Origin: an uncultured Pseudomonadales bacterium
GTDB taxonomy: Bacteria; Pseudomonadota; Gammaproteobacteria; Pseudomonadales; UBA7434
Assembly (NCBI GenBank): GCA_905478995.1
Contig: CAJQKT010000050.1
Span: 1 to 44,248, forward strand
DNA: 44,248 nucleotides
Direction of reading: 5' to 3'
Made by a program: the position numbers and the translations under genes. Shown piece by piece: positions 2,003 through 8,020 of the stretch; the first letter of the stretch is position 1; the number at the start of each line of letters is the position of its first letter. The notes under the pieces were generated by a model, which did not search any database, was not told the origin of the DNA, and saw only the letters and a list, made by a program, of their open reading frames with translations.

Positions 2003-3670
2003 CTAGAGAGAGTTGGTCTGTTGAGCCAGTGAATCTGCGCCGATGAGATCTGCCGCGCTCGCAAGGGTGCTGGTGGCAGGATTGTTCATAGTAGCTTTGC
2101 TGCTGCTTAGCTGGGCATTCGCTAGAGGGTTATTTAAGGGCTGAGCCGCCACGGCCGTTGGCACGTTGTTGTTATCGGCAACCCAGTCGCTACCAAGCAG
2201 CTGAACCAAGGTGTCACCGGCTAAATTGAACTGATCTTTGGGTGCAAGATCTTGCCAGACCAAGACGCTGTAGTAATGACGAATTCGCTGAACGTAATGA
2301 ACCGATTCGTGGCCGCGCGCATAGCCATAGCGTGTTTTTTTATACCACTGGGGTTGCGTGAGTAGCGGAAGAGTTTCTTTTACATGGTACCAACTGTCAG
2401 GGTCTTGCCCTAGGCTTTGCGTTAAGCGGCGCGCATCTTCTAAGTGGCCCATGCCAATATTATAGGCGGCCAGCGCAAACCAGCTTCGATCTGGTTCGGT
2501 AATACGGCTTGGCAGGCGATCTTTTAATTGGTGATAATACTTGGCTCCGCCATTGAGGCTTTCATCAATGTCGAGTCGATTTGTTACGCCCACTTCTCTA
2601 GCCGTCGGTTGGGTAAGCATCATCATTCCGCGCACACCCGTTGGTGAAATGGCTCGCGGGTTCCATGTGGATTCTTGATAGCTGATGGCTGCTAGAAATC
2701 GCCAATCCATTGCATAGGAGTCGGCAACGCGCTGTATGTTATCTTTGTAGCGCGGCAGTCGCGCATAGATGTTTTTTGAAAACTCGTTGGCCGCAACTTG
2801 TCCCACTTCATCGGAGTGCGAAAAAAAACGTTCCTCTAGTTGCGCAAGTGTACCGTCGCTCTGGACCCGCTCTAAAAATTCATTCGCTGCAATGCGCATC
2901 GACTCGCTCGTCGCTGACTGAGTGAACATCCAGTTAAAAGTTTGCGTTGGGGCAAAGGTGAATGCACGTTTTAGGGTGGGGAAGTTGCCTTGATGCAGAA
3001 CGAATTCAGCGGAATCAAGAATCGTATAATCGACAAGCCCTTGCTCAAGCAAACTCAGGAGCTGAGTCGAATCAACTTTCTCAACCTCACGCCACTGCAA
3101 GTCTGGGCGCTGTTTTTGCGCCTTGCGCAGGGCTGCTGAATGACTACTATTGGCTACTACAACAAGTTTTTTCCCTACTAGGCCAGCTTGGTTGCGCGGC
3201 CTATGGTTGCCCACCTTGTAAACGACGATAGGCTCGCTCTCGAGGTAGGGCTCAGAGAAAAGAAATTCTTGTCGGCGCTGTCGTGTTGGCGTCAGTCCGG
3301 CTGAGGCTAGCGCTGCTTGCCCGCTGCTGATCGCTGCAAAAAGTTCTTCCACTGTCTCGGTGGTGTTGATCACTAGCTCAAGTCCGAGGTCTTGGGCAAA
3401 CAAAGAGAGCAGCGTGTATTCAAAACCGCTAGGTCCGGATTGGGTCTCGTAGTACGTGTGCGGGCTGACATGAGTGGCTACAGTGAGTGTTTTATCACTG
3501 GTGGTATGGGTTGGAGATGCCACTTGCCAAGGGGGGCCTGCATCAGAGAACTCGTAAACCAGCGCCATTAGACACAGACCAACCCCATACAAGCACACAC
3601 GCGCCATCTTGCGCCATGATTGCACTGGCACCCATTTTCGTGTGGCTTTATGGCGGTTTAGTTTAAACAA
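2003..3670 (-). CDS. mltF: Membrane-bound lytic transglycosylase MltF
   Basis: MltF cleaves the glycan strands of peptidoglycan between MurNAc and GlcNAc, leaving 1,6-anhydroMurNAc ends. The 555-residue product has a hydrophobic N-terminal segment (about 24-40), a periplasmic substrate-binding-protein-type domain (SBP_bac_3, about 60-285; PYLESEPIVVY typical), and an SLT family 1 catalytic domain (about 300-460) with the catalytic glutamate in SYQEST (E333) and the hallmark GVRGMMMLT. The C-terminal about 90 residues are Ser/Ala/Asn-rich and probably disordered. No lipobox cysteine follows the first hydrophobic segment, so an uncleaved anchor or signal peptide is likely. The start drawn is TTG 3670, with GGA about 9 bases ahead; the next in-frame ATG (3607) lacks a ribosome site. 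The gene is divergent from purL. Confidence 0.92.
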   Translation of the reverse strand: MFKLNRHKATRKWVPVQSWRKMARVCLYGVGLCLMALVYEFSDAGPPWQVASPTHTTSDKTLTVATHVSPHTYYETQSGPSGFEYTLLSLFAQDLGLELVINTTETVEELFAAISSGQAALASAGLTPTRQRRQEFLFSEPYLESEPIVVYKVGNHRPRNQAGLVGKKLVVVANSSHSAALRKAQKQRPDLQWREVEKVDSTQLLSLLEQGLVDYTILDSAEFVLHQGNFPTLKRAFTFAPTQTFNWMFTQSATSESMRIAANEFLERVQSDGTLAQLEERFFSHSDEVGQVAANEFSKNIYARLPRYKDNIQRVADSYAMDWRFLAAISYQESTWNPRAISPTGVRGMMMLTQPTAREVGVTNRLDIDESLNGGAKYYHQLKDRLPSRITEPDRSWFALAAYNIGMGHLEDARRLTQSLGQDPDSWYHVKETLPLLTQPQWYKKTRYGYARGHESVHYVQRIRHYYSVLVWQDLAPKDQFNLAGDTLVQLLGSDWVADNNNVPTAVAAQPLNNPLANAQLSSSKATMNNPATSTLASAADLIGADSLAQQTNSL

Positions 3671-4057
3671 CGTTTTGTCCGGTTGTGTACTTGATCAGCT
3701 GATAAGGCGCCCGCTCGAATCCTTGCCTTCATAAACATCTTAAAGGCTCGATCAGGGCGTGCAAAGGTTCTCGAGCGTTAGGTGCGATGCGAGACTTAAT
3801 CTCATACCTTGGAAACACGGCTATGTTTATGAATTTATGAGATAATATGAGAACGTGACCGGCCTTGATTGGTTACGTTATTTTTCACGGTTTGAAGATC
3901 GGTAATTGTTTTACTGACAGCCCCCATGCGTATCGAAGTGGCTGTAAAGCGCATACAATGCGTGCCGCATATCTGCTGTAACAACACCGCTGCCTACATT
4001 TAACGTCTGGCCGAACCAGTCGAGCGATCGAACTGATGGGCCGCTAGGAGATTAAAG
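3671..4057. other. Intergenic region between divergent mltF and purL
   Basis: This is 387 bases without a convincing gene. It must hold the promoters of mltF (leftward) and purL (rightward). I see a perfect 10-base palindrome, ATCAGCTGAT (3694-3703), just upstream of the mltF start. There are also two copies of TTTATGA in tandem with 8-base spacing near 3825-3840, inside an A/T-rich stretch that includes GATAATATG, and a TACAAT hexamer near 3954-3959. None has a good partner hexamer, so I assign no promoter. I found no good match to the PurR operator consensus. In-frame stop TGA 4034-4036 limits how far purL can extend upstream. Confidence 0.5.
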
Positions 4058-4060
4058 CTG
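4046..4060 (+). promoter_or_regulatory. Ribosome binding site and CTG start codon of purL
   Basis: AGGAG at 4046-4050 is followed by 7 bases and then CTG at 4058-4060, in frame with purL. The conserved PurL N-terminus is encoded between this CTG and the first in-frame ATG (4157). No ATG, GTG or TTG occurs in frame between the upstream stop (4034-4036) and 4157. Spacing and homology therefore point to CTG as the initiation codon. Confidence 0.7.
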
Positions 4061-7000
4061 TCTACATTCACCTATTTCCCGGGTGCCCAAGCGCTATCGC
4101 TGTTTAGGGCTAATCGACTTACTCGCAAGATCAACGAGCAGCTGCAGAGCGCTTCTATGCCTGAATTACTTCAGGTGCAGGCCCACTATCTGCATATCGT
4201 GCACTCGGATCAGTCGCTTTCAGCCAGTACGCTTGAGGTTCTCGAGCAGCTATTAGATTACGGCGCGCAACCAGCTTCAGAGGCTCCTGATCAAGCGAGC
4301 TCTACTAGTATGCCGTCCTTGGTAGTGAGTCCCCGCAGTGGCACTATTTCACCGTGGTCGAGCAAGGCAACTGATATTGCACACAATTGTAAACTCGACG
4401 AGGTGTTACGCATCGAGCGGGCGGTAGAGTATCGGTTTGTTGTTCAGCCCAATGCGCAGATGAGTCCAAAGTTTACTCAACAGTTGGGTGCTGCGGTGCA
4501 TGATCGGATGGTAGAGCAGGTGTTTTTAGATCGTGCAGGGTTGGAGCAGCTTTTTACCCAGCAGTCACCGGCGCCGATGCAATCGGTTGATATTTTGGGT
4601 GAAGGCCGTGCGGCATTAACTCAAGCCAATAGCGACCTAGGCTTGGCTTTGGCCGATGATGAGATGGACTATCTGTTTAGCAGTTTTAGTGAGCTGCAGC
4701 GCAATCCATCGGATGTTGAATTAATGATGTTTGCTCAGGCTAATTCTGAGCATTGCCGGCACAAGATTTTCAATGCGAGCTGGACGATTGACGGCCAAAA
4801 ACAAGACCAGACTTTGTTTGGCATGATAAAGAATACTTACAAGGCTAGCGTCAATCCAGTCCTAAGCGCGTATTCGGATAATGCTGCGGTCATTGCCGGT
4901 AACACAGGCGCTCGATTTTTCCCGCAGCAGCTTGAGGGTGCTAGGCAAAACTTTATCTATCGCTCGGTAGAGGAGCCCATACACTATCTATTGAAGGTCG
5001 AAACGCATAACCACCCAACAGCGATTGCACCGTTTGCTGGTGCGGCCACAGGTTCCGGTGGTGAGATTCGTGATGAGGGTGCTACTGGTGAAGGTGCTAC
5101 GCCGAAGGCGGGTATCACGGGTTTTTCTGTTTCGAATTTATGTATCCCGGACTTCATACAGCCTTGGGAGGCCGACTACGGCAAGCCCGAGCGCATTGTT
5201 TCGGCGCTCGACATCATGCTCGAGGGGCCTATAGGCGGCGCTGCTTTTAATAATGAATTTGGTCGACCCAACCTGGGTGGTTACTTTCGCAGTTTAGAAG
5301 TGCCTGTGCGTAATGAGCAGGGCGACGTTGAAGTACGGGGCTATCACAAGCCTATTATGATTGCGGGTGGCTTGGGTAATGTGCGCGATATGCATGTGCA
5401 AAAGCAATCGATCGAAGCGGGCGCCCAGTTAATCGTTTTGGGTGGGCCGGCTATGTTGATTGGATTAGGTGGCGGGGCAGCCTCGTCCGTCAGTTCTGGT
5501 CAGAGCAGTGCCCAATTAGATTTTGCTTCTGTGCAGCGCGAAAATCCAGAAATGGAGCGGCGTTGTCAAGAGGTGATTGACCGTTGTTGGCAGTTAGGCG
5601 ACGCGAATCCAATTGCATTTATTCACGATGTAGGCGCTGGCGGCTTGTCTAACGCTTTACCCGAGCTAGTTAAAGACGGCGGCGTAGGTGGCGTTTTTTC
5701 TTTGCGAAGTGTGCCCAGCGACGAGCCTGGCATGGCGCCACTTGAAATTTGGTGTAACGAATCGCAAGAGCGGTATGTACTGGCCGTGAGATCAATTGAT
5801 ATGCCTGTTTTTGAGCAGATGTGTCAGCGTGAGCGAGCACCTTTTGCGGTTGTTGGTGAAGCGATTAGCGCGCAGCATTTGACGCTGTCGGATAGCCATT
5901 TTAACAATGCGCCCGTTGATCTGCCCATGAGCGTGCTATTTGGCAAGGCGCCGAAAATGCACCGTGATGTTCGATCGACGCAGCCGCGGCTTGAGGTTTT
6001 TGCAAGCCAAACACTTTCGTTAGATGACGCGCTCGATCGAGTGCTGCAGTTACCTTGCGTTGCCAGTAAGAGTTTTTTAATAACTATTGGTGATAGAAGT
6101 GTGTCTGGGTTGGTTCACCGCGATCAAATGGTAGGGCCGTGGCAGGTTCCGGTCGCCGACGCGGCTGTGACCTTAACTGGCTACAGTGGTTACGGCGGTG
6201 AGGCGATGGCGATGGGTGAGCGCACCCCGGTAGCGCTCATTGATGCGGTGGCGTCAGCACGCTTAGCGGTTGGTGAGGCAATTACTAACATCGCCAGTGC
6301 CCCAATTGGCGCCATGGAGGATATTGTTTTATCGGCAAATTGGATGGCTGCAGCTGGGCATGAGGGTGAAGATGCGAATTTATTTGCTGCGGTTGAGGCT
6401 GTTGGAATGGAATTGTGTCCAGAGCTGGGCATAGCGATACCGGTTGGTAAAGACTCTTTGTCGATGCGCACGGCTTGGCAGGATCGAGACGGAGTGGATA
6501 AGAGCGTCACTGCACCCATGTCACTAATAATTACCGCAGCTGCGCAGTTGAAAGATGTGCGTGGCAGCCTGACTCCACAGTTGCGCGGTAAGCAGGGCGT
6601 AGGTGAAGACACGGTTTTAGTTTTGGCTGATATTAGTGCTGGGCAACAGCGCTTGGGTGCCAGTGCTCTGGCACAAGTTTATAGCGAGCTTGGTGATACT
6701 TGCCCAGATTTAGATAGTGCGGAAAATCTCAACGCATTTTTCACCGCCACAAGGCAACTGCAAGCTACACAAAAAATTGTGGCTTATCACGATCGATCTG
6801 ATGGCGGCTTGTTAACCAGTGTTGCAGAGATGTGTTTTGCCGGCCGTTTGGGTGTTGAGCTGGTTGTTCCGGCTGACACCGACGCCGTTGCATGGGCCTT
6901 CAACGAGGAGTTGGGCGCAATATTAGAAGTTCGGCAGAGCGATCTCGATACGGTGCTGGCCACGTTCGCCGCTTGCGGCTTGCAATCGGCCTTCTACATA

Positions 7001-8020
7001 GGTAAAACGTTAGATGATCGGAAGTTGTCGGTGGTTCAGGGTGGTAAAAGTTTATTAATCAAGTCTGTTGCGCAGCTTCACGCTCAATGGCATGAGACTA
7101 GCTACCGGATGCAAGCATTGCGTGATAATCCTGAGTGTGCCGACCAAGAGCGCGATGCCATTATTAGCGGCAAGCCCGCCGAGCTTTATGCGCAGCTCCC
7201 GTATGCTTTAGATGATGATGTTAGTGCGCCCTATATCGCCCGCGGAGTGCGGCCTTCGATAGCAATCTTGCGCGAGCAAGGCGTAAACAGTCAGTACGAA
7301 ATGGCGGCGGCTTTTGATCGTGCAGGTTTCGAAGCGCATGATATCCATATGAGCGATCTGCTGTCTGGTCGAGCTAATCTGGCAGACTATGCAGGTTTGG
7401 CCGCGTGCGGTGGTTTTTCATACGGTGATGTCTTGGGTGCTGGGCAAGGCTGGGCTAAAACTATTTTATTTAATGAGTCCTTGCGTGATCAATTTGCAAC
7501 GTTTTTTGCGCGGGAGTCTAGCTTCACTCTTGGTGTATGTAACGGTTGTCAAATGCTCTCGTCGTTGCGCAGTATTATTCCTGGCAGCGAACACTGGCCG
7601 AGCTTTCAGCGCAATACCTCAGAGCAGTTCGAGGCGCGATTAGTTATGGTTGAAGTTGCGCAGAGCGTTTCACCGCTACTGTCAGGCATGGTCGGCGCGA
7701 AGATGCCGATTGTGGTGTCGCATGGAGAGGGACGAGCCTCATTCCAAGGCGACCAATTTTCTCAGCTCCAGCAAAAGCAGGCTGTCGCTCTTAGTTACGT
7801 TGATGCCAGTGGCGCGCCGGCTGTAAATTATCCAGGCAATCCCAACGGCTCACCGCAGGGGCTTGCTGGCGTGTGCAGCGATGATGGCCGGGTGACAATA
7901 ATGATGCCACATCCGGAACGAGTATTTAGACCCGTGCAGCATTCGTGGGCACCGCCAGCATGGAACGAAGATGCCCCATGGCTGCGACTGTTTCGCAATG
8001 CGCGAGTCTTCGTTGATTAA
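4058..8020 (+). CDS. purL: Phosphoribosylformylglycinamidine synthase PurL (large, fused form)
   Basis: PurL makes FGAM from FGAR, glutamine and ATP, the fourth step of purine synthesis. Starting at CTG 4058 the protein has 1320 residues, close to the about 1295 of the single-chain proteobacterial enzyme. Order: N-terminal PurS-like domain ([15 protein letters not shown] aligns with the usual GAPALSAFRxNKL), linker with [17 protein letters not shown], first synthetase half with [14 protein letters not shown] and [14 protein letters not shown], second AIR-synthase-like half, and C-terminal class I glutaminase with nucleophile C1161 (GVCNGCQ), H1285 and E1287 (PHPERVF). Starting at ATG 4157 would remove the first 33 residues, including part of the PurS-like domain. 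The gene stands alone between divergent mltF and secD. Confidence 0.95.

Follow-up and report, generated by a model that had tools for sequence, protein, structure and literature searches.

A CTG start codon on purL

The purL gene in the window (the whole stretch of DNA analyzed here, 44,248 bases read on the plus strand and corresponding to contig 50 of a 2.55-Mb assembly in 102 contigs) almost certainly begins at a CTG codon at 4058-4060 on the plus strand, as judged from the sequence and its relatives. The same codon was found in every genome of the genus in which the 5' end of purL could be read (11/11), and selection very probably maintains CTG itself, beyond the need for a start of some kind. 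Taken jointly, a CTG start that is kept by selection, with an expression cap as its likeliest purpose, is probable.

Counted from the CTG, the open reading frame (4058-8020, plus strand) encodes 1320 amino acids. Its translation matched two profiles nearly over their full length, PRK05297 with 2004.2 bits against a curated cut-off of 783 and TIGR01735 with 1860.5 bits against a curated cut-off of 1123.05, and the Pfam domains FGAR-AT_N, FGAR-AT_linker, PurM_N-like, AIRS_C (in two stretches), and GATase_5 were found within one chain. By both score and domain content, the product is assigned as a single-chain phosphoribosylformylglycinamidine synthase (FGAM synthase). The purL genes of other Gamma- and Betaproteobacteria likewise encode a full-length single chain with the expected domains; the difference lies in the start, for which a canonical codon is available in all 116 loci read outside the genus, whereas the genus carries CTG.

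We examined the sequence around the start codon by codon. Upstream, an in-frame TGA stop (4034-4036, plus strand) closes the purL frame and is followed by TGG GCC GCT AGG AGA TTA AAG CTG (4058) TCT ACA TTC. A preliminary description of this DNA had stated that no ATG, GTG, or TTG lies in frame between this stop and position 4157, and our reading agrees, as none occurs in the purL frame from 4037 to 4156. The first in-frame ATG (4157-4159, plus strand) is codon 34 of the CTG-started protein and, from the list of open reading frames and the profile match, is not the start on present evidence. In the translation begun at 4037, the PRK05297 match sets in at residue 12, aligned to profile position 2, and the TIGR01735 match at residue 15, aligned to profile position 3; in a protein started at the CTG, these become residues 5 and 8. 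A start at ATG 4157 would lose 33 residues, mostly within the profile match. The earlier claim that the conserved N-terminus of PurL is encoded upstream of this ATG was thus borne out, and the window gene contains no ATG, GTG, or TTG able to encode that N-terminus. It had also been proposed that an AGGAG located 7 bases ahead of the CTG restores a full-length enzyme; this Shine-Dalgarno motif was located at 4046-4050 on the plus strand with a spacer of 7 nt, and the nearly full-length profile matches are in keeping with the proposal. Further in-frame CTG codons occur downstream at residues 15 and 29 of the CTG-started protein. Across the aligned genus sequences, residue 15 varies, and residue 29 is an invariant leucine encoded by differing codons.

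These features have a practical consequence for annotation. ORF callers restricted to ATG, GTG, and TTG truncate PurL of the window species by 33 residues, as seen in the program-made list, which begins the gene at 4157. Among relatives in the genus, callers limited in this way would give other truncation lengths or a false extension of PurL.

Conservation of the CTG across the genus

The sample comprised 57 genomes, of which 12 belong to the genus and 45 to the rest of the order. The 5' end of purL was readable in 11 of the 12 genus genomes (G001 lacked it), and CTG was found at the homologous position in each (G000, G002, G003, G004, G005, G006, G007, G008, G009, G010, and G011). As the genus genomes are draft assemblies that include close pairs, these 11 do not represent 11 independent cases. 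Sequencing error is very unlikely because CTG recurs in independent assemblies, and we propose that fixation of the codon probably preceded the divergence of the species sampled. The number of genomes differed among the tests, with seven for the leucine columns described below, ten for the Shine-Dalgarno shuffles, and 11 for the final tally.

The surrounding sequence was also compared. The first residue of PurL was invariant in the protein alignment of nine genus genomes, while in the DNA alignment of ten the only invariant bases at the start were CTGT. All 11 readable genomes showed a Shine-Dalgarno motif, matching over 4-5 nt and spaced 6-9 nt from the CTG. Such a motif was observed in 10/10 genus genomes entered into the shuffling test, against a mean of 2.3/10 and a maximum of 8 in 2000 shuffles.

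We consider it exceedingly improbable that translation begins elsewhere, whether downstream (at ATG 4157 or a different codon), upstream in certain species, or through a frameshift out of an upstream mini-ORF. ATG 4157 is present in the window, the mini-ORF (ATG GGC CGC TAG) lies at 4036-4047 in another frame, and two genomes carry in-frame canonical codons upstream of the CTG that could be used there, namely an ATG at 9 codons in G005 and a TTG at 14 codons in G009. However, a downstream start is disfavored because it would cut the conserved N-terminus, and the first in-frame ATG elsewhere in the genus (10 genomes) lies at residue 28 in G011, at residue 34 in G007, and otherwise at residue 49 or beyond, reaching residues 118, 152, and 169 in G004, G008, and G010. 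The upstream starts are not common to the genus either, with the stretch from stop to CTG lacking a canonical start in 9 of the 11 genomes, and the ATG of the mini-ORF is ATA in G007.

The start of purL outside the genus gave a different picture. The 5' ends were read in 36 of the 45 other genomes of the order; in the remaining nine (G013, G024, G026, G032, G034, G043, G049, G051, and G052) the match did not extend as far as the N-terminus or was located at the end of a contig. A canonical start was available in 36/36, scored as ATG in 35 and GTG in one. Among named loci outside the genus, the best 80 of 584 stretches, representing relatives at up to 56% identity, gave a canonical start in 80/80 (ATG 69, GTG 11), bringing the combined count to 116/116 (ATG 104, GTG 12) under a permissive test in which a canonical codon anywhere between 25 codons ahead of the match start and 4 codons past it was accepted, with preference for ATG. 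The preliminary description had asked whether relatives conserve CTG, ATG, or GTG at this position, and the answer follows lineage, with CTG throughout the readable genus genomes and ATG or GTG available at every locus read outside. In Paraburkholderia (e.g., L078), the tblastn match to the genus alignment starts at residue 1, on their own ATG, and this favors the view that the CTG marks the true N-terminus.

Probable selection on the start codon

We sought to compare the conservation of the CTG with that of synonymous sites in the same gene. Among seven full-length purL genes of the genus, four-fold degenerate third positions agreed at 0.30-0.40 in 19 of the 21 pairs, with outliers of 0.47 (G011/G004) and 0.73 (G000/G007). 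PurL proteins from different main groups were 60-70% identical, and those belonging to the same one of two close groups 85-94%. Synonymous sites in purL are near saturation for most species pairs. Leucine was present in all seven genes at 67 columns, and only one of these, the start CTG, used one codon throughout.

Few codons can serve as a start, and we therefore took as a second yardstick how readily other weak starts change. From 246 gene pairs between G007 and G002, 72 pairs below 45% identity were dropped and 73 more had no shared canonical column, leaving 101 pairs with a common start column. The start was other than ATG in at least one genome in 35 of these, and the same codon was kept in both genomes in only 12 of the 35, which by this rough heuristic indicates that weak starts are labile in the genus. 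CTG in 11/11 genomes, with TTG one transition away, suggests selection for CTG itself, with the close pairs and the heuristic yardstick tempering the comparison. The purL CTG appears to be conserved beyond neutral expectation across the lineage.

A frozen accident is the main competing account of this persistence. Here the CTG start would be real and CUG would suffice thanks to a strong Shine-Dalgarno, while substitutions to ATG, GTG, or TTG would be neutral, or slightly harmful on unrelated grounds, and would never have been fixed. The small sample (12 genomes, with close pairs among them) leaves room for this account, as does the transversion required to move from CTG to ATG or GTG. Yet with synonymous sites near saturation in most pairs, TTG a single transition away, and so few non-ATG starts identical between G007 and G002 in the rough comparison above, we regard a frozen accident as unlikely and favor maintenance of the CTG by selection.

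Start codon usage elsewhere in the genus

A further question is whether the genus is broadly permissive for CTG starts through altered initiation machinery, with purL merely the first case to be found. We first considered the initiator tRNA. In eight complete copies from seven genomes its anticodon is CAU, and the anticodon arm matches the E. coli reference exactly. Partial matches were obtained in G005, G006, and G008 and none in G004 and G011, and the verdict covers the other seven genomes. An altered initiator tRNA was rejected for these seven.

A survey of start codons compared 800 kb of G007 with 788 kb of G002, giving the 246 non-overlapping reciprocal best pairs used above. Nineteen of these, purL among them, were flagged because their alignment extended ahead of the first canonical codon. 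The other 18 were judged by eye from the alignments to be assembly-broken genes, short or poorly conserved upstream stretches, or paralogue matches. No second clear shared CTG start was found in the 246 pairs, and purL alone was judged to need CTG in both genomes. In a smaller first survey, 23 of 140 were flagged, many of them antisense shadow frames. We also found an ATG close to the conserved N-terminus of purH, and likewise of purM, in 5/6 genus genomes each, with G004 left out of both counts (its purH locus lies at a contig end).

A permissive genus draws some support from a G002 gene in which a CTG aligns with the ATG of the G007 counterpart, and from an unusual 5' end of infC. It is set against the normal initiator tRNA in seven genomes, the lack of a second clear shared CTG start in the 246 pairs, and the ATG codons of purH and purM, and we judge it very unlikely. 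The normal tRNA and the lack of a second shared case indicate a gene-specific CTG start instead of general laxity. The purL CTG is a genus-wide start of this one gene and is probably selected, reflecting neither error nor a general relaxation of start codon choice.

Several observations on other starts were made along the way. The G002 gene, a possible CTG start in that genome only, lies in contig C23 between 100 and 102 kb from the end in reverse reading (minus-strand frame 101212-102079 of a joined 180 kb), has a TTG 14 codons upstream of the aligned CTG, and is one which we take from its sequence to be a glutamate-racemase-like gene. The start of purF must directly precede the catalytic cysteine. 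In the genus, purF began with GTG in all eight located genes (nine tried; loci L270-L275, L297, and L301), a post hoc observation on one gene, while outside the genus 15 ATG and 2 GTG starts were recorded among 17 located genes (20 tried; loci L282-L304). In all, 4 of the 29 purF loci are missing from the count (G003, G015, G017, and G033).

The main frame of infC opens with GTG in 9/9 genus genomes (L060-L068, the window genome, G000:C82, being L062). In the same nine genomes, an 11-codon mini-ORF beginning ATT AAG CAA lies behind a GGAG, and its TGA overlaps the infC GTG (GTGA). In several genomes outside the genus (e.g., G030, G012, and G033), ATT is in frame with IF3. The arrangement in the genus resembles a leader peptide with an AUU start that is coupled to infC with its GTG start, or else a frameshift.

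Proposed role of the CTG start

We propose that purL of the genus would be translated from CUG (4058 in the window), chosen through a good Shine-Dalgarno at normal spacing. The CUG would be read by the normal initiator tRNA, so that the product would begin with fMet. A poor codon behind a good ribosome binding site would then hold the 1320-residue PurL at a modest level, and CUG would also make PurL synthesis sensitive to the stringency of initiation, perhaps through IF3. A role of the codon as an expression cap is favored slightly over its absence. The preliminary description had suggested that the CTG might hold translation of this enzyme low, an idea that fits a poor codon retained behind a good Shine-Dalgarno.

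Prior research on CUG initiation is consistent with a very poor start. According to PMC11497404, CUG initiation complexes are less stable than those on AUG, GUG, or UUG, and initiation on CUG by the wild-type initiator tRNA is not efficient. PMC4611024 describes discrimination, with IF3 involved, against start codons outside the set AUG, GUG, and UUG; this review does not single out CUG for IF3 and in one passage calls codons with a 3' G canonical. GUS reporters with a CUG start gave zero expression in chloroplasts or E. coli in PMC9845219. Since CUG is very poor in E. coli, its use to feed an essential-type enzyme is not obvious; the silence of the CUG reporters suggests that CUG can work in purL of the genus owing either to a strong Shine-Dalgarno and its context or to the host. 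The gene would offer a natural example of a very poor start that selection seems to favor, alongside a normal initiator tRNA.

A more dynamic role was also considered, and a function of the purL CTG as a dynamic regulator is rather unlikely. PurL output would follow the state of initiation because CUG initiation would require IF3 stringency to be low and formylated initiator tRNA to be abundant. In its most specific form, which appears distinctly unlikely, PurL output would follow the initiation machinery and hence the 10-formyl-tetrahydrofolate pool, as part of a wider change of start codons in the genus that would include the conserved GTG on purF and the AUU mini-ORF overlapping the GTG-started infC. 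A putative link to one-carbon status by way of initiator tRNA formylation can be conceived, because 10-formyl-tetrahydrofolate serves both purine synthesis and formylation (PMC7949028).

Comparison with known non-canonical starts

Annotation of 69 model bacterial genomes contains 20 CUG-start ORFs (0.024%), as quoted in PMC9845219. Switches to CUG are very rare in PMC5622118, with 2/61,358 from AUG, 1/5,080 from GUG, and 1/2,468 from UUG, and PMC4342826 reports CTG to be absent among the start codons of Bacillus methanolicus. In these sporadic annotated cases CUG opens an ordinary protein gene, as it does in purL of the genus; however, they are rare single events, whereas the purL CUG is common to all 11 readable genomes. 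No report of a CTG start on a bacterial purL was found in the literature searched, which lacks most subscription papers. Given the rarity of CUG as a bacterial start, a genus-wide CUG on a purine-synthesis gene represents an unusual variant of non-canonical starts.

The AUU start of infC, which encodes IF3, is autoregulated through IF3's own discrimination, and the non-canonical codon is apparently kept by selection. Of known systems, this is the one that the purL start most resembles, in being non-canonical, fixed in a lineage, apparently selected, and placed behind a good Shine-Dalgarno. The two differ in that infC combines AUU with an initiation factor and purL of the genus combines CUG with a metabolic enzyme. 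We did not class purL as an infC-type autoregulated gene because its product is PurL and not a discriminating initiation factor, so that direct feedback by its own product is not expected.

Other elements near the purL start

The region around the start was searched for additional elements. An Rfam search of 3600-4300 gave zero matches at E up to 1, no sigma-70-like promoter was found in 3600-4200, and no conserved fold was detected, with ten 80-nt start regions folding no more stably than shuffled sequences (z scores from -0.59 to 1.87). As the invariant bases in ten genomes are just CTGT and no conserved fold was seen, a wider operator or RNA element does not explain the codon. The upstream mini-ORF was separately rejected as a driver, on the same replacement of its ATG by ATA in G007. 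Finally, a terminator-like hairpin of 11 pairs followed by a T-rich tail was noted at 3852-3879, between the minus-strand ORF at 2003-3670 and purL; it may be a chance occurrence, as one was found against 0.7 expected in shuffles.
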